This document shows, one piece after another, positions 5,956 through 63,540 of a stretch of 64,000 bases of DNA. A model generated the notes under the pieces. The model was not told where the DNA came from. It worked only from the letters and a program-made list of their open reading frames with translations, and did no database searches. The stretch is from Alopecurus myosuroides (lineage: Eukaryota; Streptophyta; Magnoliopsida; Poales; Poaceae): assembly GCA_028641055.1 (NCBI GenBank), contig CM054059.1, forward strand, positions 114,487,071 to 114,551,070. Reading direction: 5' to 3'. Positions within the stretch are counted from its first letter, which is position 1. Every line of letters begins with the position of its first letter. The position numbers were made by a program, and so were the translations under genes.

Positions 5956-6864
5956 GGTTCGGGGCTTGAAGGGAGAGAAGGAAAGGGGCTGGAGAGGGAT
6001 GAGAAGATGGAGGACGAGTGAAACGGGCTATTTAAAGACACGATGAGACGTGAGTTAATTGGGGTAGATGAAGCAAACTGTGTGAAAATGTTGGATGCAG
6101 TGTAGAACAGTCGATGCATGGTCAAAGCGGTGTTGAACAGGCATAGGCGTAGGACAGGCGTATGCGGTGATACGGAGTACGAGCGTGTGCATTAGGCAGT
6201 CAAAGTTGATACGACGTTGCATGCGTGTATTAAAGAGGTGATTAGAAGAAATCCAAAGTCTCACGCCAAATCCTGCCTGGCTGCATGCATTGATGCGTAT
6301 CTTCTGAAAACGAGGCATGGAGGGCTGCATCGCTGCAAATGCGACGCGACTCGTGTTTCTGAAATGAGGCGTGCAGGGCTGCAAATGCGACGCAATGTTG
6401 TATACTCTTTTCTTCTTCTGCGACATTGTCTACTCTGAAAAAACGAGGCGTGCAGGGCTGCGTCGAGGGCTGCATGCACCGGGCTGGTGAACGGGGGCCC
6501 ACTAGACAGTGTCCGTTGTTGCATGCAGTTACATTGAGACAAAACACCCAGTCCATGCACCGCATCATTTTCAATCGTTTGATCGTAAGGAACGGTGCAG
6601 ATCGAGTCCATGCATGCAAACTACGGCGGCAACGGCCTGCAGACACCGGGAACGGGATCCTCTGATGTCACCGACAAATGGAGCCCATCACACACCGGAC
6701 CCACGTGTCATGGGGAGAAAGTCAGAGAACATAAGGTGGGCAAAGTAACAGGATCTGGTTCCCTCTGTTTTTAGGGCATGTACGATAGTGTAGAGGGTGC
6801 TTTTTGCACTACTCGGCCATGTCATTTCTAGACAGCTTTAGAGATAGTTGGTACAGTGCGGTCA
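5956..6864. other. Upstream and internal sequence of the older element
   Basis: No gene is supported. The stretch just upstream of the minus-strand ORF at 5955 is its likely promoter side; CTATTTAAAGA at about 6030 is a possible TATA region on that strand. From about 6270 to 6480 the sequence contains diverged repeats of a GCATGGAGGGCTGCAT / GCGTGCAGGGCTGC motif. Frames here are short and look like by-products of these repeats. Confidence 0.4.
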
Positions 6865-8479
6865 CCCCCTAGCTTGTGTTGGGATCCAGACGCTCCGTAT
6901 CCCCCCTCCCGGTGAAACCCTAGACCCGCTGGAGAAATACCGGACTTATACGGAAACACGCGGTAACGGCGTCGAAAGGGGGTAGCAATGTGGAACTATT
7001 TGCTTTGTTGTGTTAGGATGGCCCATAGGAATACAAAACAAAAGGTAGAACCCACCTCTTCGGAAGATTCTCGATGTTTCGTCCGATACTGGAGTTTCAC
7101 CCTATAAGCGCATGCAAACTCACGAGAGAGAAGTGGATGCCGGTGAAGCGGGTCACACCCCGGAGAGAAATCTTTGACATCCAAAGCACACAACACACCT
7201 ATACTAACATGGTATGGCACCCCCTAGCTTGTGTTGGGATCCAGACGCTCCGTAGCCCCCCTCCCGGTGAAACCCTAGACCCGTTGGAGAAATACCGGAC
7301 TTATACGGAAACACGCGGTAACGGCGTGAAAAGGGGCTAGCAATGTGGAACTATTTGCTTGGTTGTGTTAGGATATCCCATAGGAACACAAAACAAAAAG
7401 GTAGAACCAACCTCTTCGGAAGATTCTCGATGTTTCGTTCGATACTGGAATTTCACCCTATAAGCGCTCACGAGAGAGAAGTGGATGCCGGTGAAGCGGG
7501 TCACACCCCGGAGAGAAATCTTTGACATCCAAAGCACACAACACACCTATACTAACATGTTATGGCACCCCCTAGCTTGTGTTGGGATCCATACGCTCCG
7601 TAGCCCCTCTCCCGGTGAAACCCTAGACCCGCTGGAGAAATACCGGACTTATACGGAAACACGCGGTAACCGCGTCGAAATAGGGTATCAATGTGGAACT
7701 ATTTGCTTGGTTGTGCTAGGATAGCCCATAGTAACACAAAACAAAAAGGTAGAACCCACCTCTTTGGAAGATTCACAATGTTTCGTCCGATACAGAAGTT
7801 TCACCCTATAAGCGCTCACGAGAGAGAAGTGGATGCCGATGAAGCGGGTCACACCCCGGAGAGAAATCTTTGACATCCAAAGCACACAAAACACCTATAC
7901 TAACATGGTATGGAACCCCCTATCTTGTGTTGGGATCCAGACGCTCCGTAGCCCCCCTCCCGGTGAAACCCTTGACCCGCTGGAGAAATACCGGACTTAT
8001 ACGGAGACACGCGGTAACGGCGTCGAAACGGGGTAGCAATGTGGAACTATTTGCTTGGTTGTGCTAGGATAGCCCATAGGAACACAAAACAAAAAGGTAG
8101 AACCCACCTCTTTGGAAGATTCACGATGTTTCGTCTGATACAGGAGTTTCACCCTATAAGCGCTCACGAGAGAGAAGTGGATGCCGGTGAAGCGGGCTCA
8201 CACCCCGGAGAGCAATCTTTGACATCCAAAGCACACAAAACACCTATACTAACATGGTATGGCACCCCCTAGCTTGTGTTGGGATCCAGACGCTCCGTAG
8301 CCCCCTCCCGGTGAAACCCTACCCGCTGGAGAAATACCAGACTTATAAGGAAACACGCGGTAACGGCGTCGAAAGGGGCTAGCAATATGGAACTATTTGC
8401 TTGGTTGTGTTAGGATAGCCCATAGGAACACAAAACAAAAAGGTAGAACCCACATCTTCGGAAGATTCACAATGTTTCC
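6865..8479. repeat. Tandem array, about 4.6 copies of a 348-bp unit
   Basis: The anchor CCCCCTAGCTTGTGTTGGGA (or a near match) occurs at 6865, 7220, 7568, 7916 and 8265, giving spacings of 355, 348, 348 and 349 bases. The first unit is longer because it has a short extra stretch (about 7115). Copies differ by scattered substitutions. Short frames of 60-80 codons recur in every unit but shift and mutate without codon-like conservation, so I treat them as non-coding. The array ends within a unit at about 8479. It probably sits inside the older CACTA-like element flanking 5567. Confidence 0.9.
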
Positions 8480-9530
8480 ACCTCATATTCTTTGAAATCT
8501 CTACTACTGTATTCGAGGAATCACATTTTAGTGAAGGCTTTCGTTCTATTGTTTATAAATCCTATTTATATTTTTCCTAGACTTGTATTCGACCTATATA
8601 ATGTAATTCCGAAGCCTGAAAATTTATTGGATGAATATTCGTATTATTTATTTTCTTTTGAATAATAATGGTTTTAATAAAAAATCCTAAATAAAACAAG
8701 TTTAAAACATCAAAATGAAAAAATAACTTTGGATCTTTCTTAGTGACACCAAAATGAAGTTTTGGTGAGATTTTGACCTTATTTCATCTCCAAAGGTTTG
8801 AAACTCATCTCATTTTCTTGAACTCTCTACTAGTCTGTTCAAGATATCACATATTAGACAACGCTTTTTCGTTCCATTCTTTATAAGACAGGTTTATATT
8901 TTTTTTCTCGTTACTATATGACATAACACTACTATGTGCGTCGGATTTATATTTTTTCGATTTTGTTTGAATTATGTATGCTCATTTCAAGCTTGGTCAA
9001 CCCTCTGTTTGACCCAACCAAAAAGCTTCTAGAAGGACACCCAGAGATTCGACCTGGGCTGTTGGATCGACGCCTTCTAGAAGGAATCTTGCATCGGACG
9101 GATGCGCTCGCAGCCACAGCGATCCGCGAGACGCTCGTTCTGTGCTAGGATTGGTTGGTCCGTTGGCCACAGGGATCGATGGTTTCTATCTGTTCTACAT
9201 ATGATTTCTTTTCGATACGGAGGGAGTATTAAGTAGTAAACCATGTTATTTAAATAACAAATATTAAAAATAGAAGAATGATTCAAAACACAGTGAAACT
9301 TCGGATTTTCTATAGCGATGATTTTTATCTGTTTTACATATGATTTTTCTATTAAACCATGTTATTTAAATTAAAAAAATGAAAAAATAGAAGAATTATT
9401 CAAAACATAATGAAACTTCAGATTTACACTATATATGTAGAATAGATGTCTAGAAAATTAATTTGGCTGATATAGACAAGATGCCAAAAAAAAGTTGAAG
9501 CACAAATGGGGGTATTTATCCTAGCTTCGG
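8480..9530. other. AT-rich spacer with a Stowaway-type end
   Basis: No gene is visible. The sequence is AT-rich, with one GC-richer patch at 8990-9170. TACGGAGGGAGTA at about 9218 is the 3' end signature of a Stowaway-type MITE; I could not find a matching left end. Two diverged copies of a block follow (ACCATGTTATTTAAAT at about 9239 and 9355, each with an ATAGAAGAAT(G/T)ATTCAAAAC motif). Confidence 0.45.
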
Positions 9531-10760
9531 ACCTCATTTGAAGCACATTTCTCATGAGAATAGAGCGATGGTTTCAAATGAGCATAAATAATTCAAAAAA
9601 AAATCAAAATGACACGAATCCAACGCACAATGTTGTTATATGTGATATAGTTGCTCCTCAAATTTATTTGGATAATTTTGGCAAAGTCGAATTTTTCATG
9701 AAATTACAAACGGGGGTGTCTACCCTAGCTTCAGACCTCATTTAAAGCACATTTCTCATGAGAATAGAGCGATGGTTTCAAATGAGCATAAATAATTCAA
9801 AAAAAATCAAAATGACATGAATCCAACGCACAATGTTGTTATATGTGATATAGTTGCTACTCAAATTGATTTGGATAATTTTGACAAGGTCGAATTTTTC
9901 ATGAAATTTCAAACGGGATGTCTACCCTAGCTTCAGACCTCATTTGAAACACATTTCTCATGAGAATAGAGCGATGGTTTCAAATGAGCATAAATAATTT
10001 AAAAAAAAACTGACATGAATCCAACGCACAATGTTGTTATATGTGATATAATTGCTCCTCAAATTTATTTGGATAATTTTGGCAAGGTCGAATTTTTCAT
10101 GAAATTACAAACGGGGGTGTCTACCCTAGCTTCAGACCTCATTTGAAGCACATTTCTCATGAGAATAGAGCGATAGTTTCAAATGAGCATAAATAATTCA
10201 AAAAAAAAACAAAATGACATGAATCCAACGCACAATGTTGTTATATGTGATATAGTTGCTCCTCAAATTTATTTGGATAATTCTGGCAAGGTCGAATTTT
10301 TCATGAAATTACAAACGGGGGTGTCTACCCTAGCTTCAGACCTCATTTGAAGCACATTTCTCATGAGAATAGAGCGATGGTTTCAAATGAGCATAAATAA
10401 TTCAAAAAAACAAAATGACATGAATCCAACGCACAATGTTGTTATATGTGATATAGTTGCTCCTCAAATTTATTTGGATAATTTTGACAAGGTCAAATTT
10501 TTCATGAAATTTCAAACAGGGGTGTCTACCCTAGCTTCAGACCTCATTTGAAGCACATTTCTCATGAGAATATAGCGATGGTTTCAAATGAGCATAAATA
10601 ATTTAAAAAAAAATTCAAAATGACATGAATCCAACGAACAATGTTGTTATATGTGATATAGTTGCTCCTCAAATTGTTGGATCGGATAATTTTGACAAGT
10701 TCGAATTTTTCATGATAATTTTGACAATAGTTTCACACCTCATTTGAAGCACGTTTGCCT
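9531..10760. repeat. Tandem array, about six copies of a 202-bp unit
   Basis: The anchor ACCTCATTTGAAGCACA and close variants recur at 9531, 9735, 9937, 10136, 10340, 10541 and 10737, giving spacings of 204, 202, 199, 204, 201 and 196 bases. Each unit contains CACAATGTTGTTATATGTGA and GGGTGTCTACCCTAGCTTC. Most length variation lies in an A-rich run after AATAATT. The last unit is diverged. Frames of about 60 codons beginning MRIERWFQMS recur in phase with the unit but are broken in several copies, so coding is unlikely. Confidence 0.9.
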
Positions 10761-15273: not shown

Positions 15274-16878
15274 TGTCTTATCGGCCTCACTGAGCGAAAA
15301 AACTAACTCCCCTCTCCCCTCTCCCCTCCCGGGTCGCACGCGCGGGCGACTCCGGAGGGTCCAAACCCTAGCAAGCAGCCCTCCGTCCCGAGCTCCACTG
15401 GCCGCTGCCGCCGTCGGCCCTGGCGGTGGTGGCGGCCCCCTGGCCGTCAAAGGCGGCGGGGAGGGGAGCGCGCCGCGCCCTGGAGCGCCGACTTCGCGCG
15501 GAAGGAGGGCTTCGACGGGAGGCGCTCGGTGGCGGCGATGAGCGGCGTCAGGCGGCGCAAGGAGGGGTCGCGGTGAGCGGCGGACCGGCGGGAGACCTGT
15601 AGGCGTTGGAGGCGACGGAGCAGATCTCGAGGCGTCTAGGCGGCGAGGTCGGGGCTGCGGGGTGGCTGAGGCCGCCTGTCCTTCAGGGGCCTTGGAGGCG
15701 TGCCCGCGGTGCTGCGCCAGCCGGTGGTGCGTCCGGGAGGCGGGAGCGTCGCGGAGGAGAGACCACCGGCAACCATGGGGCTGGTGCTGCGGGCGGGATC
15801 TGGGCCCTGCCAGGGCCCGATCTGGGTTGGCGGGCCGGCCGGTACGGCAGCTGTCTGTGACAGCAGCTGTGCGGTGGCTCTCTAACCACGCCGGAGGTCT
15901 TCAAGTCGTGGGTTGCGGGTACTCGACCAGCCGGCGGGGTGAGACCTTAGTGTGGCGTGTGTCGGCGGGGCCGGCGGCGGTTGAACGGTGGCGGTGCGGA
16001 GGCGGAGGTGCGGCGGTGATGGGAGTTCTGCAGGTTGGCAACAGTGACCTCGACGCTGCAGCGTGGCGGCGGTGCCCGTTGGGCCTGATCTGGGCCTGAC
16101 AGGCCTTACTGGGCTAGTCGGGCTGATCCGGGCCTGATAGGCCTGCTGCTGCGTCCGGTCGGTGGCTGCCTATGGCGGCGAAGGACGGTCTCCTTCTATT
16201 GGGTGCGGATGCCGACCTCGCGGGCCTGTTGGTGTCGTCGCTCTATCTCTCCCGTCATGTTGTTCCCGCGGTGATCGGATGCCGACACTGTGGCGCAAGG
16301 TTGTGGACGCCGGGGCGACGGCCCTGGAAGGTGGACTGCACGGGCGCTTCTATGGCAAGCGACGTGGCAGTGGTGGTGGTCTCGATCTTCGGTCATGTGG
16401 GTGGCGTGGAGCGAGCAGCGGGGACCTGGAGTTGGTGGCAGCTTCTCCCAGAGCGTGTTCGGGAGACCTCTCTCGAGACCAGTGGGCGGTCCGTCTGTGC
16501 GAAGTGTGTGTGAAGCGGTTCCCGAGCGAAATCTCTGCGCCCTGGCGCCAATGGCGGCGATGCCTGCGGGTACCGTTATCCTCTTGGGGGCACTGTTGAG
16601 GGTACCTTCGCCATGCTAGTGCTCCGGGTGAAAACCCTTGACCTTCTCGGTCTCGACGGCGGTGACGGATTGCGTCATTACCCTCTTGGGGGCGTCGTTG
16701 TGGAGCTTCGTTCGTCGGGTTCGGCCCGGTTCTCGGTGGCAAGTTTGGATCTCCTTTGTGCTTTTTCCTTTTCTTTCTTTGTTCTGTTTGTAAGGGGTTT
16801 CCCACCACCTTGTATCTGTTCGGCCGTTGGGCTTTATTTATAAAGCGGGGCGAAAGCCTGTTTCGTGTCTTATCGGCC
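15274..16878 (+). mobile_element. Non-autonomous LINE derivative, about 1.6 kb, 13-bp target duplication
   Basis: TGTCTTATCGGCC occurs exactly at 15274-15286 and 16866-16878, flanking an insert of 1579 bp. The insert starts with CT-rich 5' LINE-like leader sequence (including CCAAACCCTAGC) and ends with AAAGCGGGGCGAAAGCCTGT. It contains no endonuclease or reverse transcriptase, only short GC-rich frames on both strands. The 3' half is clearly related to the reverse complement of 34552-36039 (both contain CTCCGGGTGAAAAC and TACCCTCTTGGGGGCGTCGT). I infer a deletion-derived family moved by enzymes from full LINEs. Confidence 0.85.
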
Positions 16879-17317: not shown

Positions 17318-18096
17318 AGTCTGGCTGCTATGCGGCTTTCCTTTATATTCGAAAAAAGGACTCAAGGAGTTAGGGGAACCTTTACTTCGTTACATATGTA
17401 ACTAGGATTTAACAAATGTTTTCTCGCATCTTAGATTCTACTGAAACTAATAAAGCTAGTACACCATATTTAATTGATGCATCAACCATTATTTCGAAAG
17501 TCCGAACTGATGGAGAGGAGTTAGGCAATATATTTATATTTCAACACACCATGTTTTACGATTTTGAGATACCTACTTGGTGGCAGCTTCTGCTATGCCC
17601 TTGCCGTAAGATGAAGGATTTGGCTACTACTCCCACAAACACTAAATGTGGTACTGATTAAACCATTGTGCAGCTATATACTTCGCGCGACTCGAAGCCG
17701 CTCACTTCTGTAGTCAACGACACGGAAGGAAGAAATGGGTAATAAAAAGGAACAATTGATGGCAAATCTTGAGGATCGGATACTTGCAAGCAGGCCAGAG
17801 ACGTTTCTGAGCAACGACTACGCATTGATCTTCACGATCGCAAAGAAGCTCGCAAACGGTGTAGCATACCTGGCGCTGACGTGGTCCACCGTAGTCCTTC
17901 TTGGCGGCTTTGTCAGTGACCTCAAATACAAAGACTTCTGGTACCTCACCTCCATCAGCATGGTATTTGCAATCGGGTAAGCGCTTTTTTTCTCACCTAT
18001 ATCTCTTGAAATGTACTACATACAATTTTAGTGTTCAAATATTTTGTTTACTATGCAAATAAAATATCAAGGAGAAATTCAAATCAGTAGGCTTTC
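17318..18096 (+). repeat. Left copy of the 779-bp direct repeat flanking the LINE
   Basis: This segment begins AGTCTGGCTGCTATGCGGC and ends CAGTAGGCTTTC. A copy of exactly the same length lies at 22204-22982, offset 4886 bases. I compared the two by eye along their length and found no difference; the translated frames within are identical. It includes 417 bases upstream of the BLE2-like ATG, all of exon 1, and 120 bases of intron 1. The run of 24 T that starts at 18097 is the poly(A) tail of the minus-strand LINE, so this boundary is the initial cleavage side. See the finding on the long target duplication. Confidence 0.95.
17735..17976 (+). pseudogene. Duplicated exon 1 of the BLE2-like gene (left copy)
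   Basis: Identical to the exon at 22621-22862: ATG, 80 codons (MGNKKEQLMANLEDRIL to SISMVFAI), then CGG|GTAAGC as donor site. In this copy the exon is followed by 120 bases of intron and then the LINE. It keeps the original upstream sequence beyond 417 bases. It could still act as an alternative first exon, splicing over the LINE to exon 2 at 40405, or it could make a truncated message. Without transcript data I treat it as a stranded duplicate. Confidence 0.8.
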
Positions 18097-21000
18097 TTTT
18101 TTTTTTTTTTTTTTTTTTTTGCGGTGAAAAGGAATATATTAAGCAGGGGTAGGATTACATTCGCTCCTTACAATGTGAGCAATCTCAGGAGGATAACTCT
18201 TTGCCCAGAAGGCCGTTCTAGCATGTAATCTACCCAGTCTAGCTAATCCATGGCTTGCAGTATTCGATTCCCTGCCAGTCTTAGCAATATCAAAGTTCCT
18301 TTCCTTTAATAATTCTCGTATAGAAGAAATCCTGAATGCATAAATGGAGCTGTTTGGCGTGGATTCCTTAATGAGTGCAATGGCTTCAGCACAATCGGTC
18401 TCAACCATGACATGTGTATTGGACCAAATCAGAGCAAGTTTCAGACCTTCCTCGATTGCGCAAAGTTCTGATTCCGTGGCATCTGAGCAGTGTGGTATAG
18501 ACCTACAGGCAGAAAAGATAACCTCGCCTGTATGGTCTCTCAGTATCATACCAGCACCCGCATTCCCGTTGGGTGAAAAGGCGCCATCCACGTTTAGTTT
18601 TGCTCTGTTGCTGCCTGGTAAGTCCCATTTTTTCCTTACCTTCTGTCTCCCATCCGTTTTAGCTGGTGCTTTCCCAAAACCTTGGTCTATGTTGATCACC
18701 ATCTTCCCTTTTACCGGATCATCACTCGGGGATTGCTTGATCATGAGGAGGGAGTTGAGATAGCTAATCAGGAAGCGCCTCGAGCCTTCAACCGAGGGGC
18801 ATGGTTTTTCATGGGTCATTTCGTTATGTGCATGCCATATTCTCCATATAATCATAATCGTGTAGACCCTCTGATTTTCATCAATGTTATGCAGCAAGTT
18901 GAGGAGCCATTCCGGCCCAGTATCCATCAGCATCCCATCCTCAGGCAGCTTCCAGGCTTCCGACATCGCCTCCCACAGCCTCCTAGCGTGAGGGCATCTA
19001 ATGAAGACATGAAACGTGTTTTCCTCTTCTAACCCACATAACTCACACTTTGCATTAGTGGCTATACCCCTTCTGAAGAGATTTGATTTGGTCGCTAGTG
19101 CGTTGCGGCACACTTTCCAAGCCAGAAGCTTCATCTTGGGAGGTACAGGGCACTTCCAAATTAATTTCCAACTAGGCCTCTCACCATTTGGATATGTACT
19201 GGTAGCACCAATGTCCTGTTCCAGTATCAGATTCGACAGTGCCATTTTGTATGCGCTTTTGACCGAGAACAGACCACGTTTGTCAGGGTGCCACGCGATA
19301 AAGTCTTGGTCCTGCCTCGATGAAGTTTTAATCTTCAGAATATCAACTACATCATCCTGGTTGAAATAAAGGTCCAATCTCTGCCTATTCCATTCACCAG
19401 TCGGTAACATGAAATCAGACACCCATTTGTATCGGCATATCCCCTGCACGGTATTGGGTTTTCGGTTCCTATCCCTGGGAATCCATGGATCTCGCCAAGC
19501 CCGTATTTGGGACCCGTTGCCCACACGCCAAATAACACCTTTCTTCAAAAGCTCAAGACCATACTCAATCGCACTCCATGTCGATGATTTGTTACCAGTA
19601 AAAACAGTATCAATCAGTGATCCATTTGGATAGTATTTCGCCTTCAGTAGACGAGCACATAGGGTGTCTGGGTATTGTAGCAATCGCCAGGCCTGTCGAG
19701 ACAGCAGCGCCTGGTTGAATAGGCGCATATCCCTAAAACCCATCCCTCCAAAGGTTTTGGGTCGGAGCATAATATCCCATGCCACCCAGCACGTTTTCCG
19801 ACGCCCATTCTCGGCCCCCCACCAGTATCGTCTGATCATTTTCGTGAGCTCATCACATAATCCCATTGGAAGCTTGAACACACTCATCACATAGACGGGA
19901 ATGGCCTGGGCAACCGACTTGATGAGGATCTCCTTTGCTGCTTGAGATTTATGATTGTCATCCCAATCAACGAGGCATTTGGCAAGGGTGGCCTGTAGAC
20001 TTTCAAACTTATTCCTAGACATCCGACCATCCGGGGTAGGCAGTCCAAGATAGCGGTTTTCGAAGCTTTCTTGTGTTATGTTCAGAGTATCAATCACCTC
20101 CCGGCGTGCATCCAGAGGGCATGCATCCCCGAACATAATAGAACATTTGCTGGGGTTGATCAATTGCCCGGTACTACTTGCATATTGATCCAATATCACT
20201 TTAATACGTTGAGCTTGATCTCTATTAGCTTTGAAAAATAGGAGACTGTCATCCGCAAAAAGAAGATGAGAAATCCCCGGAGCTTGGCGACATATCTTTA
20301 CAGGTTCAATGGTTCTGTTTGTAACCTCTTGTTGTAGGAGGGTAGACAGGCCATCTGCAACAAAGAGGAAGAGAAAGGGTGAAAGGGGATCGCCTTGTCG
20401 GAGGCCCCGACTAGGTGAAAATGTATCCAGGAGGTTCCCATTTAATTTTACTTTGTACTGTACCGTGGTGACGCATGTCATAATCCAGTCCACCCATCGG
20501 TACGAGAAACCTAGCCTTTGCAACACTTTCTTTAGAAAATCCCAATCCACTCTATCATACGCTTTAGATAAATCCAATTTGTAGGCACAAAAATTCCTAT
20601 CCTGGTGGGTGTTGTGCTCAATGAAATGCAGACATTCAAAGGCCACCAAGGCATTATCAGTGATGAGTCTCCCCGGGATAAAGGCGCTCTGGTTGATAGA
20701 AACCAAATCATGCAAGAAAGGCCTAAGCCGGTTAACTAAACATTTGGAAATTACCTTATAGATCACCGTGCATAAGCTTATGGGTCTGAAATCTTTCAGT
20801 GTCTCTGGCTGGTCCACTTTTGGGATGAGGATGATGGCAGTATCATTCACCCCTTCTGGCATCTTGCCATTAACAAAAAATAATTTGACCGCATTGGTAA
20901 CCTCCTCCTTAATGGTACCCCAATTCCGCTGGTAGAAGCGAGCTGGAAACCCATCAACCCCCGGGGCCTTGAGTGGACCAATTTGGAAGAGGGCATCTGC

Positions 21001-22203
21001 AATTTCATCATCTGTAAATTCTCTACATAGTGCCTCATTAATTTCCGGAGTAACTTTGTCTTGCACTAGAGAGACAATTTTTTCGGGATTGAGAGAAGGG
21101 TCCTTAGTAAACAACTCCTTAAAATAGGAGCGAGCCATTAGTTCCATATCAGTTGGGGTGTCCTTCCATACCCCCTGATCATCTTTTAGCCGCTTGATTT
21201 TGTTCCTTCTAGCTCTCCATTTAGTAGTTTGGTGGAAGAACCTTGTATTACGGTCGCCCTCCTTGAGCCAAGTTATTCTGGATCGCTGCAGCCATAGCAT
21301 TTCCTCCTTATAGAGTAACTCATTTAGGTGATCTGTGGCACCTCTGATTTCCCGTTGGTCTGCATCAGACATTAGCAGCCCCTCAAGGTTTCTCCGTGCT
21401 TTGGACAGCTCCCGTAAAATATTGCCAAATTTCTGCTTACTCCACTTTTGTAGAGATGACATGACATGGTCAAGGCCATTCATGACATCAGAGAGATTTC
21501 GTTTTGTGCCAGCCTCACTCCAGGCTTGTTGTACATACTCTGGTAAAGCATGGTCACGTTCCCATAGTATTTCGTATTGTCTCCGAGGCTGCATCGAATT
21601 GTTCCGGACCTCCTGTGTAATATTCAGCAATATCGGATTATGGTCAGAGACCGATGTGACCAGATGTTGAACTTGTGAATCAGCGAACATGTCCCTCCAA
21701 CTCGGGTTGGCCACGGCCCTATCAAGGCGAACCCGAACGTTGGCCGTGCCCCTTCTCTTGTTATCATATGTATATGGCAGACCTGAAAAGCCAAGATCAG
21801 CCAAGTTACAGTCAGCCAAGACCTCACGAAAAGCATCCATTTGGCCAACAGCTCTAGGGGTATGTGATAAGTGCTCCTCTTGCCAAAGAATTTCGTTGAA
21901 ATCTCCGATGACGACCCAGGGTAAGTCTGATTGTGCTTTTAGGTTGCGAAGCGCATCCCACATCCGATGACGGTTCTCCACTCTAGGTTCTCCATAGACG
22001 CAAGTGAGGCGCCATTGGGGGGCTTGAGGGGAAACACGAACATACACATCAATAAATCTTTCATTAATCTGTTGGACTTCTACAGTAAAACTCTCATGCC
22101 AAAACAGGGCTAAGCCCCCACTCAGACCATCACTACTGTGACCAGCAAAACCTTTTAAACCTAACCTATTACGAAAACGCCTAACTTTATTCTTATTTTG
22201 TCT
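18097..22203 (-). mobile_element. 5'-truncated LINE retrotransposon inserted antisense to the BLE2-like gene
   Basis: The 4107-bp insert has its poly(A) tail at the low-coordinate side (24 T at 18097-18120) and a truncated 5' end at 22203, inside the endonuclease domain. ORF1 is absent. Its ORF2 frame is completely open, which together with the apparently identical flanking repeats indicates a recent event. The flanking duplication is 779 bp instead of the usual 5-20. Confidence 0.95.
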
Positions 22204-22251
22204 AGTCTGGCTGCTATGCGGCTTTCCTTTATATTCGAAAAAAGGACTCAA
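18139..22251 (-). CDS. LINE ORF2 polyprotein: endonuclease (partial), reverse transcriptase, RNase H
   Basis: The frame is open for 1370 codons; the first 16 (MSPFFEYKGKPHSSQT) come from flanking host DNA, and the LINE part starts at RQNKNK. The apurinic-type endonuclease lacks its N-terminal active-site segment but keeps VVIGDFNEIL (about 115) and SDHNPILL (about 205). The reverse transcriptase shows FRPISLCTVIYKVISKCL, KLDLSKAYDRVDW, GLRQGDPLSPFLFLF and the catalytic LLFADDSLLFF (ADD near residue 666). A zf-RVT motif follows (CELCGLEEENTFHVFIRCPH). The C-terminus is a plant LINE RNase H (LNVDGAFSPNGNAGAGMILR; ATESELCAIEEGLKLAL; ETDCAEAI). It cannot support a complete autonomous cycle without the endonuclease start and ORF1. 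Confidence 0.93.
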   Translation of the reverse strand: MSPFFEYKGKPHSSQTRQNKNKVRRFRNRLGLKGFAGHSSDGLSGGLALFWHESFTVEVQQINERFIDVYVRVSPQAPQWRLTCVYGEPRVENRHRMWDALRNLKAQSDLPWVVIGDFNEILWQEEHLSHTPRAVGQMDAFREVLADCNLADLGFSGLPYTYDNKRRGTANVRVRLDRAVANPSWRDMFADSQVQHLVTSVSDHNPILLNITQEVRNNSMQPRRQYEILWERDHALPEYVQQAWSEAGTKRNLSDVMNGLDHVMSSLQKWSKQKFGNILRELSKARRNLEGLLMSDADQREIRGATDHLNELLYKEEMLWLQRSRITWLKEGDRNTRFFHQTTKWRARRNKIKRLKDDQGVWKDTPTDMELMARSYFKELFTKDPSLNPEKIVSLVQDKVTPEINEALCREFTDDEIADALFQIGPLKAPGVDGFPARFYQRNWGTIKEEVTNAVKLFFVNGKMPEGVNDTAIILIPKVDQPETLKDFRPISLCTVIYKVISKCLVNRLRPFLHDLVSINQSAFIPGRLITDNALVAFECLHFIEHNTHQDRNFCAYKLDLSKAYDRVDWDFLKKVLQRLGFSYRWVDWIMTCVTTVQYKVKLNGNLLDTFSPSRGLRQGDPLSPFLFLFVADGLSTLLQQEVTNRTIEPVKICRQAPGISHLLFADDSLLFFKANRDQAQRIKVILDQYASSTGQLINPSKCSIMFGDACPLDARREVIDTLNITQESFENRYLGLPTPDGRMSRNKFESLQATLAKCLVDWDDNHKSQAAKEILIKSVAQAIPVYVMSVFKLPMGLCDELTKMIRRYWWGAENGRRKTCWVAWDIMLRPKTFGGMGFRDMRLFNQALLSRQAWRLLQYPDTLCARLLKAKYYPNGSLIDTVFTGNKSSTWSAIEYGLELLKKGVIWRVGNGSQIRAWRDPWIPRDRNRKPNTVQGICRYKWVSDFMLPTGEWNRQRLDLYFNQDDVVDILKIKTSSRQDQDFIAWHPDKRGLFSVKSAYKMALSNLILEQDIGATSTYPNGERPSWKLIWKCPVPPKMKLLAWKVCRNALATKSNLFRRGIATNAKCELCGLEEENTFHVFIRCPHARRLWEAMSEAWKLPEDGMLMDTGPEWLLNLLHNIDENQRVYTIMIIWRIWHAHNEMTHEKPCPSVEGSRRFLISYLNSLLMIKQSPSDDPVKGKMVINIDQGFGKAPAKTDGRQKVRKKWDLPGSNRAKLNVDGAFSPNGNAGAGMILRDHTGEVIFSACRSIPHCSDATESELCAIEEGLKLALIWSNTHVMVETDCAEAIALIKESTPNSSIYAFRISSIRELLKERNFDIAKTGRESNTASHGLARLGRLHARTAFWAKSYPPEIAHIVRSECNPTPA

Positions 22252-22982
22252 GGAGTTAGGGGAACCTTTACTTCGTTACATATGTAACTAGGATTTAACA
22301 AATGTTTTCTCGCATCTTAGATTCTACTGAAACTAATAAAGCTAGTACACCATATTTAATTGATGCATCAACCATTATTTCGAAAGTCCGAACTGATGGA
22401 GAGGAGTTAGGCAATATATTTATATTTCAACACACCATGTTTTACGATTTTGAGATACCTACTTGGTGGCAGCTTCTGCTATGCCCTTGCCGTAAGATGA
22501 AGGATTTGGCTACTACTCCCACAAACACTAAATGTGGTACTGATTAAACCATTGTGCAGCTATATACTTCGCGCGACTCGAAGCCGCTCACTTCTGTAGT
22601 CAACGACACGGAAGGAAGAAATGGGTAATAAAAAGGAACAATTGATGGCAAATCTTGAGGATCGGATACTTGCAAGCAGGCCAGAGACGTTTCTGAGCAA
22701 CGACTACGCATTGATCTTCACGATCGCAAAGAAGCTCGCAAACGGTGTAGCATACCTGGCGCTGACGTGGTCCACCGTAGTCCTTCTTGGCGGCTTTGTC
22801 AGTGACCTCAAATACAAAGACTTCTGGTACCTCACCTCCATCAGCATGGTATTTGCAATCGGGTAAGCGCTTTTTTTCTCACCTATATCTCTTGAAATGT
22901 ACTACATACAATTTTAGTGTTCAAATATTTTGTTTACTATGCAAATAAAATATCAAGGAGAAATTCAAATCAGTAGGCTTTC
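22204..22982 (+). repeat. Right copy of the 779-bp direct repeat (promoter and exon 1 of the BLE2-like gene)
   Basis: Same start (AGTCTGGCTGCT) and end (GTAGGCTTTC) as 17318-18096 and the same length. This copy is joined to the rest of the gene, so transcription of the intact coding order must start from this 417-base upstream fragment or read through from the left copy. It also contains an 81-codon frame (22302-22547, MFSRILDSTETNKAST) upstream of the TATA-like site. I do not recognise it, and because it lies upstream of the likely transcription start it is probably not translated. Confidence 0.95.
22561..22566 (+). promoter_or_regulatory. TATA-like element of the BLE2-like gene
   Basis: TATATA lies 60 bases before the ATG at 22621, which would place transcription start near 22590 and give a 5' leader of about 30 bases. 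The same element is at 17675-17680 in the left copy, so the long duplication carried a complete core promoter. Assignment rests on position and sequence only. Confidence 0.45.
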
Positions 22983-25900: not shown

Positions 25901-28900
25901 ACCTTTAGTCCCGGTTGGCCACACGAACCGGGACCACATGCTATTTCGTTATTTCTTTAATTCATTTGGGTTTCTAATTATTTTTCACTCCAAATTTTCA
26001 CTCCTTTTTTTTCACTCCAATTTTTCACTCCCTTTTTTTTTCAGAATTTTTATTATTTGCTTAGTGTCTAACTACAATTATCTCTAGTCAATTTGGAAAT
26101 TGACTAGAGATAATTGTAGTTACACACTCCAATTTCTTACTCGTGTCTAACTAATTCATTTTAAAATCTTAAAAATACAAATAATATATCAAAATATTCA
26201 GAAAAATAAAACTAATTTATTTTAAAATCTTAAAAATACAAATAATATATTAAAATATTCAGAAAAATAAAACTAATTCATTTTAAAATCTTAAAAATAC
26301 AAATAATATATCAAAATATTCAGAAAAATAAAACTAATTCATTTTCCCCTTTCCTAAATGCAAAATAAAATCTGATAAAATTCATGAACAAAACCATATA
26401 AAATTTGCAGATCCAAGTTTCGACTATTATTTTGGACACAAGAACTTTTTTGGCAATGACTATCTGTGAGAATGATTTGAACCTAACTTTTAAAATACAT
26501 AACCAAAATGGACAAACTAAAATGTTCTGGATAGATATTGAAAAGATCTATCCATAGCAGTTAGCCTCACATCAAGGTCAACAACCAAATTAAAATACCA
26601 TCCTTTTTAATAAAAGACCAGTAGGCTCTTCTATGATTTTTAGAATGAGTTCAAAAATGAATTTTGAAGTAAATCCAACTGGATGAGTTTGGTATTGACT
26701 AGATCTATGTTTTCCTGGTTTAGATTAATTTTTGGAGCTCTAGATTTATTTTTGGTGAACAGATATAGAAACAGTAGTTTTTCTGTTTTGTTTTCTTGAT
26801 GTGTTTTTGATTGTTTTGAAATGTGTGTTTGATCTTATCTTGTTTCCTAGCTTGTATAGAGTGTTAGGACTTGATATTATGTTGTTTGCTTGCAGAACAT
26901 GTACCTTAGAAAGTGTGTGCATGATTGGAAACCCAAATAAAAATGGAACTAGCATTTGTTACTTTCTAGTTTTATTATTTTGGAATTGTGTGTGAGCTAG
27001 ATCTTTGTGTGATTGCTTTAGTAAATTTTGTGCTATGTTTAACCCGTGATTTTATTTGAGCCATTACATAACATAGCGGTACATATATCCATTAATTACA
27101 TAATATAGAAATAATAGTTTTTGGTGAACAGATATAGAAACGGTAGTTTTTCTGTTTTGTTTTCTTGATGTGTTTTTGTTTATTTTCTTGATGTGTTTTT
27201 GTTTGTTTGTTTTGAAATGTGTGTTTAACATAATATAGAAATAATATAGTTAGGAATTAATATAGAAATAATATAGAAATTAATAGAAAGACATATATCC
27301 ATTACATATATCGAACGCAAGATGCGGTACACAAACAACATGTACTCGAGCTCCGAAGAGTAGATACGGAACAACTCGAAGGCAACGTATGCATCTATTG
27401 CTGCATACTCGAGATTGATCCGGTCCAGTGGGTTCTTCCCCCAATACATGTGATTCCTCGAGGGGAAACGAGTCTTCATGGTTTTCTAGTCGGCGTGGAT
27501 GAAGGCAGTTGCCATCGGAGCCATCCCGGTCTTGTGCCCGTACAGCTCATCAAAATGGATAAGGTCCTGAAGATCAATGTAGTGATCTTCAGGTATCTCA
27601 ATACCCAAGCGCATCAACTTCTGCCGGTCTTGAGTGATGTCAATGCTACAGAAGTCGTACCCCTTGTTGCCAAGAAAATCAACAAGTTCTGGAGATTGCT
27701 TTGAACTACTGCAACAACAAAAATAGAACACGTGTTAGATATGTTGCAACACGTGTATTCTTCCAATGCAACAAACAAATCGAAAATGCAACACTATCCT
27801 ACAAGAGAGATTGTACGTGTGCGTTACCTTGCCCATTGGAAGACCAAAACGATCTCCTTGAAGGCAATCTGGATGACGGCAACATCCCGTTGATTCGTCG
27901 TATACTCTAGATCAAGCCCGAAGAACTTATGGTGTTCATCGGCTTCTTCATAGAGATTGCTCAAATGCTTAAGAGCATCGGGGAGCCTCTCGCACATATT
28001 GGTGTAGGCCACGTCGAGAATCTTGCGGCATGGTGTGGGCACACGGAGAAGGTTCCAAACGGGAGAATCCATGGGTGCTTGGTGGAGGAAGAAGAAAGGA
28101 AGAAGAGAAGAGAGGAAGAAGAAACAGAGAGTCTCGGGTGCGCACTGTAGCAATGGCCTTCTGCCTCTCGCTCGCGAAATAAAACCGCCGCACGGGAGGC
28201 GAGCAGTTTGGATCTTTAGTCCCGGTTGGTCTGGCCAACCGGGACTAAAGACAGGGAGGCCAACAGTTTGGATCATTAGTCGCGGGTGGCCAGGCCAACC
28301 GGAATTAAAGCCCTCCACGCGCTTCCCAAACCGCGACGCATGGCCTTCAGTCGCGGGTCGCCTCCCGAACCGGGACTAAAACCCCTTTAGTCACGGTGCG
28401 CATAATTTGGGGACTGATGGGGGCGTATGGAAGGCCTTTTTTCTACCAGTGATCATTGGGGAATTGTCGAGCGTGAGATGTAAGCGATCTTACAGTTCAT
28501 GTTATTTGGATCGGACCCTCTGTGTCTTTTTATATTAATAGGCTAGTACAAACCGAAACTCTAGCCATATTTCAAAATGCTCACCGGTAACAGAGAATGA
28601 GTGTGTGTGTCCCGACTCTATCACAAATATGAACATGGTACTAAATTCTAGTAGAGATTTTTCTTTTGTCCATTACCGATGTTAGTACCTAACTGGTAAC
28701 AAATTTATATCATATTAGAAATACAAATTAGTCATTTTCTTAAACTGATTTCTTCCACCTCTCAATTACACAATCTACATCGAATTTAAATATTTTCACA
28801 TCACAAGCAGAAGGATAATTAACAAAAATTTCATTCATAACTATACAAATGTCATGTCGACAAAACTAATATCTCACTGAAGCCACATACTAAAAGTAAC

Positions 28901-37900: not shown

Positions 37901-40900
37901 GATACCCCAAATTGAGTTATGTGAAAATTTTCATTTCAATCTTCATATTTTATATTATTTGCACATATACTGCTTTTATGTACGCGAAAAAAAGTATATT
38001 TAAAAGCTGAGTATGTTGATGATATTTTTTTTCTCAAAACTTATATTGAGGTATCTTAGAATAATTAACTAGGTATATAAAAAACAATAAAGAGGTATAA
38101 TATGATCGTATGTGAGGTATATTCAATATGAGAGTATCTACACCGGAGTATATAATAGGAGTATATATATATATAACAATTAGTGTGGCTAAATAACGCT
38201 GTAATTTTCTAGATTATATACTTGAACCATCCATTTCTCAGTCACTTTCATTCCATTAAATTCAAGACAATGTACTCGCATGGTGCTACTAGTTAGTTTA
38301 CCGGCCAACACGAGAAATTAATATTGATTTTTTTCGAAACGTGGGCCTGGCCTCTCCATTGATCGGTTCATGCAACCTTTATTGAAAATAAATTAATAGT
38401 GTGAGACCAAAATGAGTTTTAATATTGAAAATCTATTATATACTAAAAGCAATATACAGAACTTAAATGGAGAAACCACGTTAATCCACATCATGCTAAT
38501 TATTTAGACACTTGGATCTATATTGAGTGGCTGAGATTTAACGTGAGATATGTTCAGATTTATAAAAAATGTTACGTAAAACATAATAGTGTACAACCTG
38601 TCACGTTGGCTAAGATTTAATGCAAAAGAGAAAGCTACGTGAACTATATAGTCGTGTACAAACGTATCGCGTAGGTACAAAACTGATCATGCACGTACAA
38701 TATCAGAACCGGTATGGTGCGCGAGTGGACGGCCCTGGTGCAGGCAGCCGGCTGGCCTCTCAGTCGTTCCACATGACACGAGTGCAAACGTAGATTTCTC
38801 CATCATCTTCCTTTAGGTACCATCGGCATGCATCCGTCAATCAGCCGTATACATGAAGCAATTTGAGGTCCTCCGCGGTTAGCCTAGCTTCCCAGCTAAT
38901 TCACTTGGCAGAAAGAAAAAAAAAATCATGCTCGGCTTTGAGGGTCAACCAGGTTAATGTATTATTATATTTGGACATATTGATCGTGTGTGGTAGTTCT
39001 CCTTGCAAAACAACTCAATTTAATTTGGTAAAATCAAAATCCATTTGGTGCCTGCAAGATTGTCAACAAAAAAGCTTCATAATATTCGTACATATTAGCT
39101 GGTCATGTTAAGTAATAAGTTATTGCTACCACCGTCTCAGAGTACAATTTATATTTAAAAGCCCCAGTCAATATCTTATATTTTCACGACTAAGAATAAC
39201 ATAATATTCATGTTTGTTTGGTGGAATTGGATCATTATGGTTATTTGTCATCCTATGAAAATACATTTAGTTAAATAGTTAAACACGAGTGGGAGCGACC
39301 TGGTAAGCCAAGAAAAATAAGGATTTATTTGCGGCAATACATGTATTTCACATAAAAACAGACAAAACTAAATATGGATTCTATTCAAAGGGATCTCGCC
39401 ACAACTCAATAAGAAATTTGATCCATATCAATAAGTTTATGCTATCTTACACAATGCACATTTGCCAATCAATTGTTAGCAAAGAACCGATTCAAGATTT
39501 CTTGGACATTCACTTGACCAACTTTTGTCAAGAGTTGTAAAGGCAATGTGGTTTATGTGCGAGAATTTGCAAAGGAAACCAAAAAAATACTACCAAAAAA
39601 GAAAGTGCAATCCCAGGCTGAAAAATGTTTTGGCGGGACACAGTTGTGAGCCCAAAAAAAAAATACCCCATGCGCAACCAACATATTTTCCTTCTTCATA
39701 CAATTCTAATGTCTCCATCGATAGTTTTATAACCATCCACTATTCCACAAAGAGAAATGTCCAAGCACGTCTGAATGGCAATATGAAAAAATATCCAGAA
39801 GACAAAAATCACCTATATGTCAAAGAGAGTTGAATGTTCAGTATTTTCTTGGCATTGAATACTGTATTTGTTGACCATAACAACTTATGTACAATTGAAC
39901 AAGCTTCACAGTTCCAAAATAATTCGTGGCAGCTTTCAATGTGCATGAAATAAAATCAGGATCTCAATGAATTATTCATTTCAATATTTTATCATTCATT
40001 ACAATTAGTGGACAATGAATGTTACAGGCAATGATAAAGTGGTCCAAACAAACATCACACCTTGAAAATAACATAGTTGAAGAATCTATCTTTTGAAAAG
40101 CTAATGAACTATGTAAATTGTGTTAGTTATTATACTTCTAAGGACTCAAATATTTTGTGAATGCTGCCAACATGAACATACTATGTTAAAAAATAAACAT
40201 AAAATGTTCTTTATACTATTACAACAATAAAGTTTTCTCTTCATATGAAGACATAACTTTTACTTTATAAAAAAGAAATGAACATGTTTAGAATATTGAA
40301 CATATAAAAGATGTTTTCTAGACATTTTTGGATACTTCCCTCGCATCTGCGAGGGCCACCATGCTAGTTTGGATTAAAAAAAATCCGTGTGGCTCCTACA
40401 ACAGGATTCTGCCCTTTATGGAGTCAGAGAGTGGTATGGATTCCACGGCGCGGTGCTATATCGCATTGCATCATAAACTGGAAGTGATGGAACGAGGGTA
40501 TTCCCATGGTTTTTCGATTTTGTGCGTGAGGCTATTGTCAGCATGCCTGGGGGCATTTTCGGCGATGGTGTGGCTCGTACAGATGGGTGCGGTAATGATC
40601 CTTCTTTGGGCGCCGGCAGTGTCAATGGCGATATCGCTGATGCGGCTGAAACAGAGGGATTACAATGGCGATATCGATGGGGCCAACAGAGAGAAGCTGA
40701 CGGCGGCCCTGGACATCTTCTACTCCCTTGCCGTGGTTCAAGGCCTACTTTTGTACACCTGCATCCTATTTAGGGCCGGTGAGTGGGTTTTGGCAGTGTG
40801 CATTGCAAGCAAATGTGGATTCGGGCGATGGGGCTCCGGCGTTGCTATGCGATATATCCGAGAAACTAGAAAAATGTGTTCGAGGGATGGATTCATACCT

Positions 40901-42860
40901 GAAGAAAGGAACTTAATCACGTACGCTGTTGGCTTATTGGAGAACACTCATGCAACTCCAGATGAGTATCTTGACGGAGCTAGGATACTGGACACGTTGG
41001 TTAGAGACAAGATACCGATTGAGGATGCAGTGTCCAAGCTTGCCATCCAGAATCTGATCCAAGTGCTAGGGTGGAGGGGCCAACGACGGGACGGGAGAGA
41101 GATGAAGGAGAGAGCCGCGAGGATCGTGACGCATCTCGCCGGCAACCTCCACACGGACGAGTTCCCGGGAGCGCTACGATGCATAGCGTCCCTGCTGGAA
41201 ACACCAGTAGTACAACCCAACACACAGGCCGCCACAGGGAAGCTCAAGGGGAAAGGGCCAGTATACTGGTGCATTTTATCCAATAGGGGGAGCCATTCTA
41301 GCCCCACCGTCGTCGCGTACACAGACGACCTCGTCTTACAGGGCCTGCTGCTTCTCCAGAGGCTCACCCAGCACCAAGACAACTGCAAGGAGATATGCCA
41401 GAACGAACGTCTGCTCTCAATGATCATGTCACCATTGAATTGGCTCCTCACCGTTGACCGTGACGCTGAGGCTGAGATACTGATCGGGACACTCAGAGTG
41501 GTCACCGGGCTTGTCAGTGCTCCGGCGGAATCCACAACAAAACTCCGTCAAGAGATCTCAAGCAACTTCCCCCTTGTCGCTGACATGCAAAGGGTTTTGG
41601 AGGATGACAATGCCGCTGCACCAGGCCTAAAGACAGCGACCGTGGAGATTCTCACGGTGTTGGCCTCAGACTTGTCCATGAGCCATCCGAGCAGAGAGCG
41701 GTTCATTCTTATAGCCAAGAACATCTTCCTTGGTGACATGGCTCGGAGCAGTACCCAAGCAGACCAAGAGGCCAGCTGCAGGTTGATGAAGAGAGCAGGG
41801 GAAGCACTAGTAAAAATGCTATCAGTTCGGGGTGTGACAAGCTCCAGTGTATTCATGAGTATGCTCCCGCAAGATAACGCCTCCGGTATAGTATGCAGCT
41901 CTGATAATAAACTCACTGAAATACTTGTTGAATCCAAGGTGTGGCAGTGCCAAACAAGCGCAGCACAAATCTTGGAGCATTTTTGTCTCCAGTGGACTGA
42001 ACAGAAAAAGATCAGCTTATTAGAAACGGTAACCTCTGTGCACCTGCATACATACATATATGTAGCTCAGTCGTCTTATTCACGTATAGCAAAATATTTA
42101 TTCCCATCTGATAAATAATTAATCAGTTTACTTACTTTTCATGTCGATCTCATGAGCTAATCAGTAGGGCTGACGTTTTGCTATTTGCATTATATATTGA
42201 TCTTGTGCATGGCATGATTATAAGAATGTTATACCTTTCTGTTCCTGTCAACTAAAATATGTTCTTACATTTATCCATTAATTTCAGGCTCTTGCCCTGA
42301 TACTGCGTACTCAAACTGAATCAAATGATGAGGCAGGCACATCGCCAAGGAGTACCCCTGCAGTAGAAGACTTAGAAAACCAATCTGGGAATGATGCTGT
42401 TCCAAACGAGCCCTCTAGTGAGCACAGTGATGATCAATTGGCGGAACAGAAATTGCTAGCAGCCCTTCTATCTCTCACAGTTACGGTATGGGACAACTTG
42501 CTCCAGAAAGATAACCTTTTTAGTCTTGCTTCTGCCGATTACAGACTGATCAAGAAGCTCAAGGAGATAATAGCGAAAAACAATGATGCCACAGCTGATT
42601 GTCTACGAGTAGTGAAGCTTACCTGTCAAGTGGTTATAGTAATGGTTCGGCACGAACCAAGCTGGATCAAATGCTTTGAGGAATGTGAGCTCATGGAATC
42701 ACTATCTGAGGCTCTGAAGACAATGGGAGAAGTCGACAAATGCATGCTCTTTGCTCGTGAAGCCATGAAACCTGCGAGGCCACTTTCTTCCCTTTTGACA
42801 GAAGCACGTCGGTTTCTGGAGAAGAGGAACCACTCAACCACCTCAGTCAATAAGAATTAA
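22621..42860 (+). CDS. BLE2-like multipass membrane protein with C-terminal helical repeat region (three exons)
   Basis: Exons join(22621..22862, 40405..42028, 42288..42860) give 812 residues. Junctions are in phase: CGG|GTAAGC to CAACAG|G, which completes a glycine codon (FAIG, then ILPFMESESG), and ACG|GTAACC to TTTCAG|GCT. The N-terminus (LEDRILASRPETFLSNDYALIF, then YLALTWSTVVLLGGFVSDL) is the hallmark of a large grass family related to rice BLE2, a brassinolide-responsive protein. Exon 2 adds hydrophobic segments (LCVRLLSACLGAFSAMVWLV; LDIFYSLAVVQGLLLYTCIL). The rest is helical, armadillo-like (RAARIVTHLAGNLHTDEFPG; AIQNLIQVLGW). The biochemical role of the family is not settled. The start is fixed by conservation; exon 1 exists in two identical copies. 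Intron 1 is about 17.5 kb of transposons, so expression may be impaired. The family call comes from memory of related proteins. Confidence 0.82.
22983..25727. other. Intron 1, proximal part
   Basis: Mostly AT-rich sequence without genes. A GC-rich patch at 24420-24600 has no clear frame. A 12-base C tract lies at 24199-24210, just upstream of the small gene fragment described separately. I see no intact transposon ends here. Confidence 0.35.
24041..24193 (-). pseudogene. Fragment resembling the N-terminus of a plant synaptotagmin-like SMP/C2 protein
   Basis: A 50-codon frame starts MAKNRIKKLHADDAFERFNQ, continues VNQPLLPFLVVLGFFA and ends ESWVMPFSN before a TAA. The pattern of a short basic/acidic start, RFN, then KPLLPFL-type membrane segment and SFSN resembles, from memory, the first exon of NTMC2T3-type proteins (Arabidopsis At3g18370 group), which anchor in the ER at membrane contact sites. 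In those proteins the segment continues with a second hydrophobic stretch, which is missing here. I read it as a captured or decayed exon fragment in the antisense strand of the intron. A short independent peptide cannot be excluded. Confidence 0.4.
26069..26122. repeat. Perfect inverted repeat, 26-bp arms, 2-bp loop
   Basis: The arm at 26069-26094 (starting TAACTACAATTATCTCTAGT) is followed by GG and then by its exact reverse complement at 26097-26122. The centre reads CAATTTGGAAATTG. It lies inside the exonuclease-bearing element, on the far side from its gene, next to the 61-bp tandem repeat. Confidence 0.95.
26151..26333. repeat. Three tandem copies of a 61-bp unit
   Basis: CTAATT(C/T)ATTTTAAAATC recurs at 26151, 26212 and 26273, with a fourth partial start at 26334. 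Spacing is exactly 61 bases. The units differ at only a few positions (for example ATATATC versus ATATATT). Confidence 0.95.
27225..28072 (-). pseudogene. WRN-like DEDDy 3'-5' exonuclease, spliced, with one in-frame stop
   Basis: ATG at 28072 opens exon 1 (27828-28072), with donor CAAG|GTAACG. The acceptor TTGCAG|T starts exon 2 at 27708, and the joint codon is in phase. Residues of a DEDDy exonuclease of the Werner type are visible: FGLDLEYT (Asp54, Glu56, Exo I), ITQDRQKL (Asp109, Exo II) and YAAIDAYVAFELF (Tyr183, Asp187, Exo III). The spacing and the PELVDFLGNKGYDF segment fit the family. A single TAG at 27486-27488 after AFIHAD cuts the frame before Exo III, but the same frame resumes without shift (KTMKTRFPS) to a stop at 27225. 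So it is either a pseudogene with one nonsense change or a sequencing error. Lying inside CACTA ends, it is an apparent captured gene. Confidence 0.8.
28455..30215. other. Intron 1, middle part
   Basis: AT-rich, with a TA run at about 29375-29393. I see no gene, RNA or transposon terminus. Confidence 0.3.
30219..32260. mobile_element. Non-autonomous CACTA derivative, about 2.0 kb
   Basis: The left end is CACTAGTAGGAAAAGGCATG at 30219; the right end is GGTTTTTCCTACTAGTA at 32244-32260, whose last base differs from the expected G. Subterminal repeats of GGAAGCGTG / CACGCTTCC type occur at both ends (30241-30430 and about 32040-32220). The interior is AT-rich and has no transposase. The target duplication is not clear: GTA before the left end and ATA after the right. 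Confidence 0.8.
32261..34537. other. Intron 1, with a 25-base poly(G) tract
   Basis: A frame at 32337-32561 (MSSNPTGSEVV) has no recognisable domain. The tract at 33240-33264 is 25 consecutive G, a possible quadruplex or a sequencing-sensitive spot. The rest is AT-rich with no visible gene. Confidence 0.35.
34538..36053 (-). mobile_element. Non-autonomous LINE derivative, about 1.5 kb, antisense
   Basis: AGC(A/G)ACAACCAAGA at 34538-34551 and 36040-36053 forms a 14-bp target duplication with one mismatch. The insert (34552-36039) reads 5' to 3' on the minus strand and ends AAAGCGGGGCGAAAGTCTA. Its 3' part is homologous to 15287-16865, including GGGTGAAAAC and TACCCTCTTGGGGGCGTC. It has no ORF2 domains. 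It lies in intron 1 of the BLE2-like gene. Confidence 0.85.
36217..37755 (+). mobile_element. Second-type short LINE derivative with 15-bp target duplication
   Basis: AAAATGTTTT(G/A)CCCG occurs at 36217-36231 and 37741-37755 with one difference. The insert of 1509 bp begins with GC-rich leader sequence and ends CAGGTGGGGATTCTCCCC, a tail unlike the AGCGGGGCGAAAGCC type, then an A-rich end. Frames such as the 177-codon one at 36647-37180 show no known domain. It is non-autonomous. Confidence 0.75.
37787..38165. mobile_element. Possible MITE with imperfect inverted ends
   Basis: The left end (CCATACACCTGGGTGTATGTACACTC, only partly matched) and the right end (GAGTATCTACACCGGAGTAT) are imperfectly complementary. 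Both sides are flanked by TATATATA runs, and the interior is AT-rich. The family is not identified. Confidence 0.35.
38432..40367 (+). mobile_element. Non-autonomous Helitron, 1.9 kb, ending next to the exon 2 acceptor
   Basis: The left end is TCTATTATATACTAAAAGC at 38432, after an A. The right end is CTAG at 40364-40367, before a T, giving the A|T target typical of Helitrons. A perfect hairpin precedes it: CCCTCGCA at 38-45 and TGCGAGGG at 48-55 of the 403xx block (40338-40355), 8 bases before CTAG. No Rep/helicase gene is present. The element ends only 37 bases before exon 2 of the BLE2-like gene (40405). Confidence 0.8.
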
Positions 42861-52909: not shown

Positions 52910-56760
<3,851 letters not shown>

Positions 56761-63437: not shown

Positions 63438-63540
63438 GAAACTATGTATATATATGTCTGCCTTGTATGCGACGAAACTATGTATATGCGACGAAATTTA
63501 ATGTACCTTGTTCTGTATTTGAAATGTGGACTTATTATTT

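Follow-up and report, generated by a model that had tools for sequence, protein, structure and literature searches.

A Probable 779-bp Target-Site Duplication Carrying a First Exon Flanks a 5'-Truncated LINE in Alopecurus myosuroides

A predicted gene of the grass Alopecurus myosuroides (assembly GCA_028641055.1, contig CM054059.1, positions 114,487,071 to 114,551,070 of the forward strand) is interrupted in its first intron by an antisense long interspersed nuclear element (LINE), which is flanked by two copies of a 779-bp direct repeat. Each copy includes exon 1, together with 417 bp of sequence before the ATG (with a TATATA motif at -60) and 120 bp of the intron. Here, we describe this locus, compare it with other copies of the LINE family in the same genome, and argue that the repeat is a target-site duplication (TSD) that very probably arose together with the LINE. 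The 64,000 nucleotides analyzed are called the window, and coordinates are positions within it unless a genomic location is given. The repeats and the LINE with its open reading frame (ORF) are laid out as follows.

17318..18096, + strand: TSD copy 1, with the upstream region, exon 1, and the start of host-gene intron 1 (779/779 identity to copy 2)
18097..22203, - strand: 5'-truncated L1-type LINE, antisense to the host gene (ORF listing and Pfam)
18097..18120, - strand: poly(A) tail, 24 T on the + strand, adjoining TSD copy 1 (from the sequence)
18238..18594, - strand: RNase H-like domain (RVT_3; PF13456, E 4.1e-20)
18973..19269, - strand: zf-RVT domain (PF13966, E 1.3e-21)
20041..20826, - strand: reverse transcriptase domain (PF00078, E 4.3e-36)
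21640..22137, - strand: partial endonuclease domain, profile positions 65-225 of 225 (PF03372, E 7.1e-11)
22201..22206, - strand: ACT microhomology at the 5' LINE junction (read as AGT on the + strand, 22204-22206; all four full-length relatives fetched have ACT at the matching place)
22204..22982, + strand: TSD copy 2 (alignment, repeat scan, and host-assembly search)

Aligned base by base, the two copies showed 0 differences in 779 positions; their identity stops dead at both ends (0 bases of extension on either side), and the same pair was recovered independently in a repeat scan of the window (family D7). This perfect repeat is not a chance match. The insert between the copies (18097-22203) is 4,107 bp long, with its poly(A) adjoining copy 1 and its 5' end adjoining copy 2, and the direct repeats abut both LINE ends, as in target-primed LINE insertion. 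Because the 5' join has a 3-nt microhomology, the TSD length is 776-779 bp. The absence of differences gives a 95% upper bound on divergence of 0.0038 per site; at assumed substitution rates of 1.3e-8 to 6.5e-9 per site per year, the duplication would be under about 0.15-0.30 million years old, and conversion between the copies could make this apparent age too young.

By its domain content, the insert is a 5'-truncated plant L1-type LINE. The domains follow the plant L1-type order (partial APE-type endonuclease, reverse transcriptase, zf-RVT, RNase H-like), all above the Pfam cut-off, the 3' end carries poly(A), and relatives extend upstream of the truncation point. The N-terminal part of the endonuclease domain is missing because of the 5' truncation. 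The ORF2 frame (1,354 codons, - strand) is open from the 5' end of the element to a stop at 18139-18141, and its stop-to-stop reading continues 24 codons into TSD copy 2. The nearest named relatives were from grasses, with dicots lower in the list (120 proteins listed of 584 matches). A preliminary description of this DNA had reported equal-length direct repeats identical throughout, bounding exactly a 4,107-bp antisense LINE with a poly(A) tail and an open ORF; the base-by-base alignment, the limits of the insert with its 24-nt tail, and the ORF2 frame bear this out.

Within 5 bp of the LINE ends, no exact flanking repeat of at least 5 bp and no 80% match of 8-20 bp was found; there was a single 4-bp match. 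A LINE inserted into an existing tandem pair normally adds a short TSD of its own, which breaks the register. Since the LINE ends show no such separate TSD, two events would call for an insertion that left no TSD and hit the junction exactly. The LINE is collinear with its relatives to the last base and has no 5' filler. With 120 of 584 matching proteins aligned, 27 of the 30 relatives whose alignment begins within residues 1-3 have the residues ET directly before the truncation point, and all four full-length DNA relatives fetched from the same genome read GAAACT/AGACAAAATAAG across it; the target reads CAGACT up to the junction, so that ACT is common to both. Microhomology is reported to be frequent at the 5' joins of 5'-truncated L1 (PMC4245944).

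To obtain a family baseline, the 3' part of the LINE was searched against the genome (40 of 70 candidates scored; 10 of 40 rows gave no locus). Among the scored matches, one relative had 90% identity, and the rest had 84% or less. TSDs were examined at 24 of the 29 other loci (all except L016, whose match pattern is that of L015, and L031, L033, L034, and L037) and were resolved in 11, in 10 cases at 19 bp or less and in 1 at about 145 bp. The lengths were 18 bp in L012, about 145 in L013, 14-16 in L014, 17-19 in L017, 13-15 in L018, 15-19 in L019, 12-13 in L021, 16 in L024, 6-13 in L029, 11-14 in L035, and 13-14 in L036, where ranges reflect bases common to the TSD and the tail or element start. 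The TSD of L012, L014, and L024 is separated by no more than some tens of bases from the start common to the other copies. No TSD was resolved in the other 13 (L011, L015, L020, L022, L023, L025-L028, L030, L032, L038, and L039), the 5' end of several of which was not located; at the estimated 5' ends of L023, L025, and L027, there was no shared 6-mer. The ordinary length is typical of LINEs, not defining, and the present locus departs from it (779 bp, whereas 10 of the 11 resolved relatives do not exceed 19 bp). The preliminary description gave 5-20 bp as normal for LINEs; TSDs of 0.1-5 kb are documented in cell culture, so a long one is rare but has precedents.

The one other long TSD belongs to a full-length relative (L013/L048; C7, about 47748097-47754620), whose repeats match in 142 of 147 columns with one gap. 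One repeat touches the poly(A) and the other reaches to within 2 bases of the element start, which is the layout seen at the 779-bp locus, here around a full-length element and with a TSD of about 145 bp. Judged from these two loci, a long stagger has occurred at least twice in the LINE family.

Separately, at the closest LINE relative (L011 with L040; C2, about 512.53 Mb; 90%), a 12-bp match to the start of the 3' flank lies some 860 bp upstream of the LINE part. The sequence between the two is not LINE sequence and resembles the 5' extra sequences described for maize Cin4 (PMC10490952).

The 779-bp segment itself was searched against the host assembly (3.57 Gb; 40 of 549 first-look candidates scored, giving 66 rows). 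Among the scored matches, the only full-length ones were the two window copies, with no third full copy and no empty-site copy. Of the other 64 rows, 63 fell inside bases 132-246 of the segment and 1 in exon 1. Bases 132-246 (17449-17563 and 22335-22449) belong to a dispersed repeat (75-88% identity) whose copies are often about 200 bp apart. The exon 1 row is a paralogue, L003 (C4:325879289-325879396), with 79% identity over 108 bp of part of that exon.

We consider it highly probable that the whole structure was made by one LINE retrotransposition event, as the preliminary description had suggested, because the ends of the duplication coincide with the LINE ends, no separate short TSD is present, the 5' join shows 3-nt microhomology, and a family member has a TSD of about 145 bp. 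In such an event, the + strand of intron 1 would have been nicked after GGCTTTC and before CACTATAG, and the nicked 3' end would have primed reverse transcription from the LINE poly(A). Synthesis of the complementary DNA (cDNA) would have halted within the endonuclease domain, and the cDNA end would have been joined, aided by ACT/ACT pairing, to a 3' end of the opposite strand lying some 779 bp farther upstream in the gene, versus the usual distance of about 15 bp. Fill-in would then leave 779 bp on each side of the LINE. The second 3' end could have arisen at a remote nick in the same chromatid, or the sister chromatid could have supplied it; this source and the order of the steps are what we infer.

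Several observations weigh against a single event. A 3-nt microhomology is expected by chance about once in 64, and an 8-bp word is common to the LINE 5' end and copy 1, about 50 bp off the junction in a position unlike that of a TSD. The priming site (GGCTTTC/CACTAT) is T-rich but has C at its 3' end, next to poly(T). Of nine relatives tabulated before L029 and L036 were resolved, seven have A (T on the nicked strand) as the base that adjoins the TSD on its tail side, so the nick site is not typical. The TSD having been left unresolved in 13 of 24 relatives, TSD-less insertions may also occur in this family, as is needed if the segment was first duplicated in tandem and the LINE later inserted exactly at the junction. 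The preliminary description had named that order of events as its alternative, and tandem arrays do occur elsewhere in the window (6764-8478 and 9502-10725). The LINE would have had to hit a single bond and leave no TSD of its own, and the older duplication must have stayed undiverged (0/779). We therefore disfavor this order of events as highly improbable, since it needs a coincidence and the LINE ends show no separate TSD. Scarcely better placed is a LINE that came first with an ordinary short TSD, which break repair or conversion from the LINE 5' junction later lengthened to 779 bp. If the copied tract stopped exactly at the LINE 5' end, the same sequence would result, but the second break must fall exactly at that junction and only chance would make the microhomology fit the segment's far end; we regard this, too, as very unlikely.

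An assembly artefact, in which a 779-bp stretch beside the LINE was falsely duplicated, would account for the identity of the copies. Both breakpoints coincide with LINE ends, however, and the matching layout at L013 has copies that differ (142/147 columns), which is unexpected for a false duplication; such an error is extremely improbable. A variant of the single event is a possible, if unlikely, account: the second end would come from a sister-chromatid break, making the structure a small LINE-bridged tandem duplication. This was proposed for an L1-bounded tandem duplication of 22.6 Mb in a cancer genome (PMC7058536), which resembles the present case in having a single L1 insertion at the tandem-duplication junction and differs in its size, its somatic origin, and its sister-chromatid model. 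Such an origin and a remote second nick in the same chromatid would look alike in the sequence, and 779 bp falls inside the TSD range reported in culture (PMC5223499).

The single retrotransposition event favored here would be a rare but known kind of insertion accident, by analogy with the TSDs of 0.1-5 kb documented for LINEs in cultured animal cells. At 779 bp, the duplication is longer than the 100 bp by which long-TSD insertions are set apart in cell culture, and the missing short TSD and the microhomology suggest one event. In human cells deficient in nucleotide excision repair (NER), engineered L1 insertions are reported to be flanked by long direct repeats (TSDs of 5 bp to 5.3 kb, median 1,495 bp), as at the present locus; in HeLa cells, events with TSDs of >100 bp made up at most 10%, and the authors pointed out that long L1 TSDs could duplicate exons (PMC5223499). 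That system consists of cultured cells with repair defects, whereas ours is a natural grass insertion whose repeat includes a coding exon. For HeLa cells, a further account describes extremely long TSDs in 5'-truncated L1 insertions (PMC2912911). In wild-type DT40 cells, 1 of 25 ZfL2-2 insertions had a 1,228-bp TSD (PMC2666801), a long TSD without a repair defect in the cell, as here, although that element is a zebrafish LINE of another family studied in a cell-culture assay. Canonical insertions in 1,019 humans had a median TSD of 21 bp (PMC12350158).

Among grass LINEs, maize Cin4 is, like the present element, 5'-truncated, ends in poly(A), and has 5' joins with overlapping sequence, but the 25 copies in its Table 3 have TSDs of 7-18 bp, versus 779 bp here; 30 of 53 insertions in B73 were reported without a complete TSD, which could hide long ones (PMC10490952). 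In the titles and abstract openings of the searched literature on LINE TSDs, which mostly excluded subscription papers, we found no plant LINE with a TSD of >100 bp. The locus thus offers a natural plant case, at the sequence level, in which a coding first exon and its upstream region were copied, most likely by a single retrotransposition event. The second family member with a long TSD (L013) is a modest surprise, and it permits one to ask, through counts within a single assembly, how frequently a plant LINE produces long TSDs and what sets the choice of the second-strand end.

The host gene was modeled from hand-chosen, phase-compatible splice predictions, with the following features on the + strand.

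17735..17976, + strand: exon 1 copy a, coding part of 242 nt, splice donor GT at 17977 (copy alignment and splice prediction)
22561..22566, + strand: TATATA 60 bp upstream of the copy b ATG, counterpart in copy a at 17675 (motif only)
22621..22862, + strand: exon 1 copy b, identical to copy a, splice donor GT at 22863 (splice prediction)
40354..42028, + strand: predicted exon 2 (acceptor and donor picked by hand, phase-compatible)
42288..42860, + strand: predicted exon 3 with stop (splice prediction)

Predicted exons 22621-22862, 40354-42028, and 42288-42860 join into an uninterrupted ORF of 829 amino acids, in which exon 2 begins 17.5 kb beyond exon 1b. Exon 1 (242 coding nt) matched 29 proteins at 45-74% identity, in a search whose length window returned short proteins only, and the exon 2 ORF had two matches (7,998 candidates scored). 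Exon 1 and then the ORF at 40322-42115 align in order to residues 33-87 and 186-728 of a single Eragrostis protein (P0030, annotated merely as "hypothetical protein"), the latter ORF at 26% identity over 82%. Those protein relatives of exons 1 and 2 that carry a species name were from grasses (most exon 1 rows have none), and neither exon 1 nor the exon 2 ORF had a Pfam match. The gene is putatively BLE2-like (rice OsBLE2), as the preliminary description had named it.

As first described, the repeat holds a TATA-like element, the ATG, exon 1, and a splice donor, here the TATATA at -60, the 242-nt coding exon, and GT. A TATA-like stretch near 17528 falls within the dispersed repeat, and we therefore place weight on the TATATA at -60 alone. 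The earlier suggestion of two promoters and two first exons stands for the exons, which are duplicated identically and would therefore yield the same protein; the 417 bp upstream with its TATATA is a putative promoter in copy 2. The old start region with exon 1a is predicted to splice across the antisense LINE as a 22.4-kb intron. A coarse scan of 22204-22700 (YAG after 20 bases with at least 70% pyrimidine) found no acceptor-like site, so inclusion of exon 1b as an internal exon is unlikely and it would need its own transcription start; it is predicted to be used only if the copied upstream region acts as a promoter. It is doubtful that this grass LINE family makes long staggers often enough to be a natural duplicator of promoter-plus-first-exon units, with copy 2 serving as a working alternative promoter beyond the antisense LINE.

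Within host-gene intron 1, a - frame at 27225-27485 had a weak match to a 3'-5' exonuclease (PF01612, E 0.0069, below the cut-off). Rfam gave no match within the window. The tandem arrays at 6764-8478 and 9502-10725 have units of about 348 and 202 bp, and an array of 21-bp units lies near the window end (63500-63997). ORFs near the window ends, which we take to be CACTA-like, contain DUF4218 and DUF4216 (2-1198) and Transposase_21 and DUF4218 (61258-63434). A hAT-type reading at 44785-47255 (DUF4371 and a hAT dimerisation region) is split across two overlapping + strand ORFs, and a leucine-rich repeat (LRR) receptor kinase-like ORF of 1,097 codons lies on the - strand at 53295-56585. An inverted pair, 16425-16705 and 34815-35095, spans 281 nt at 78% complementarity.

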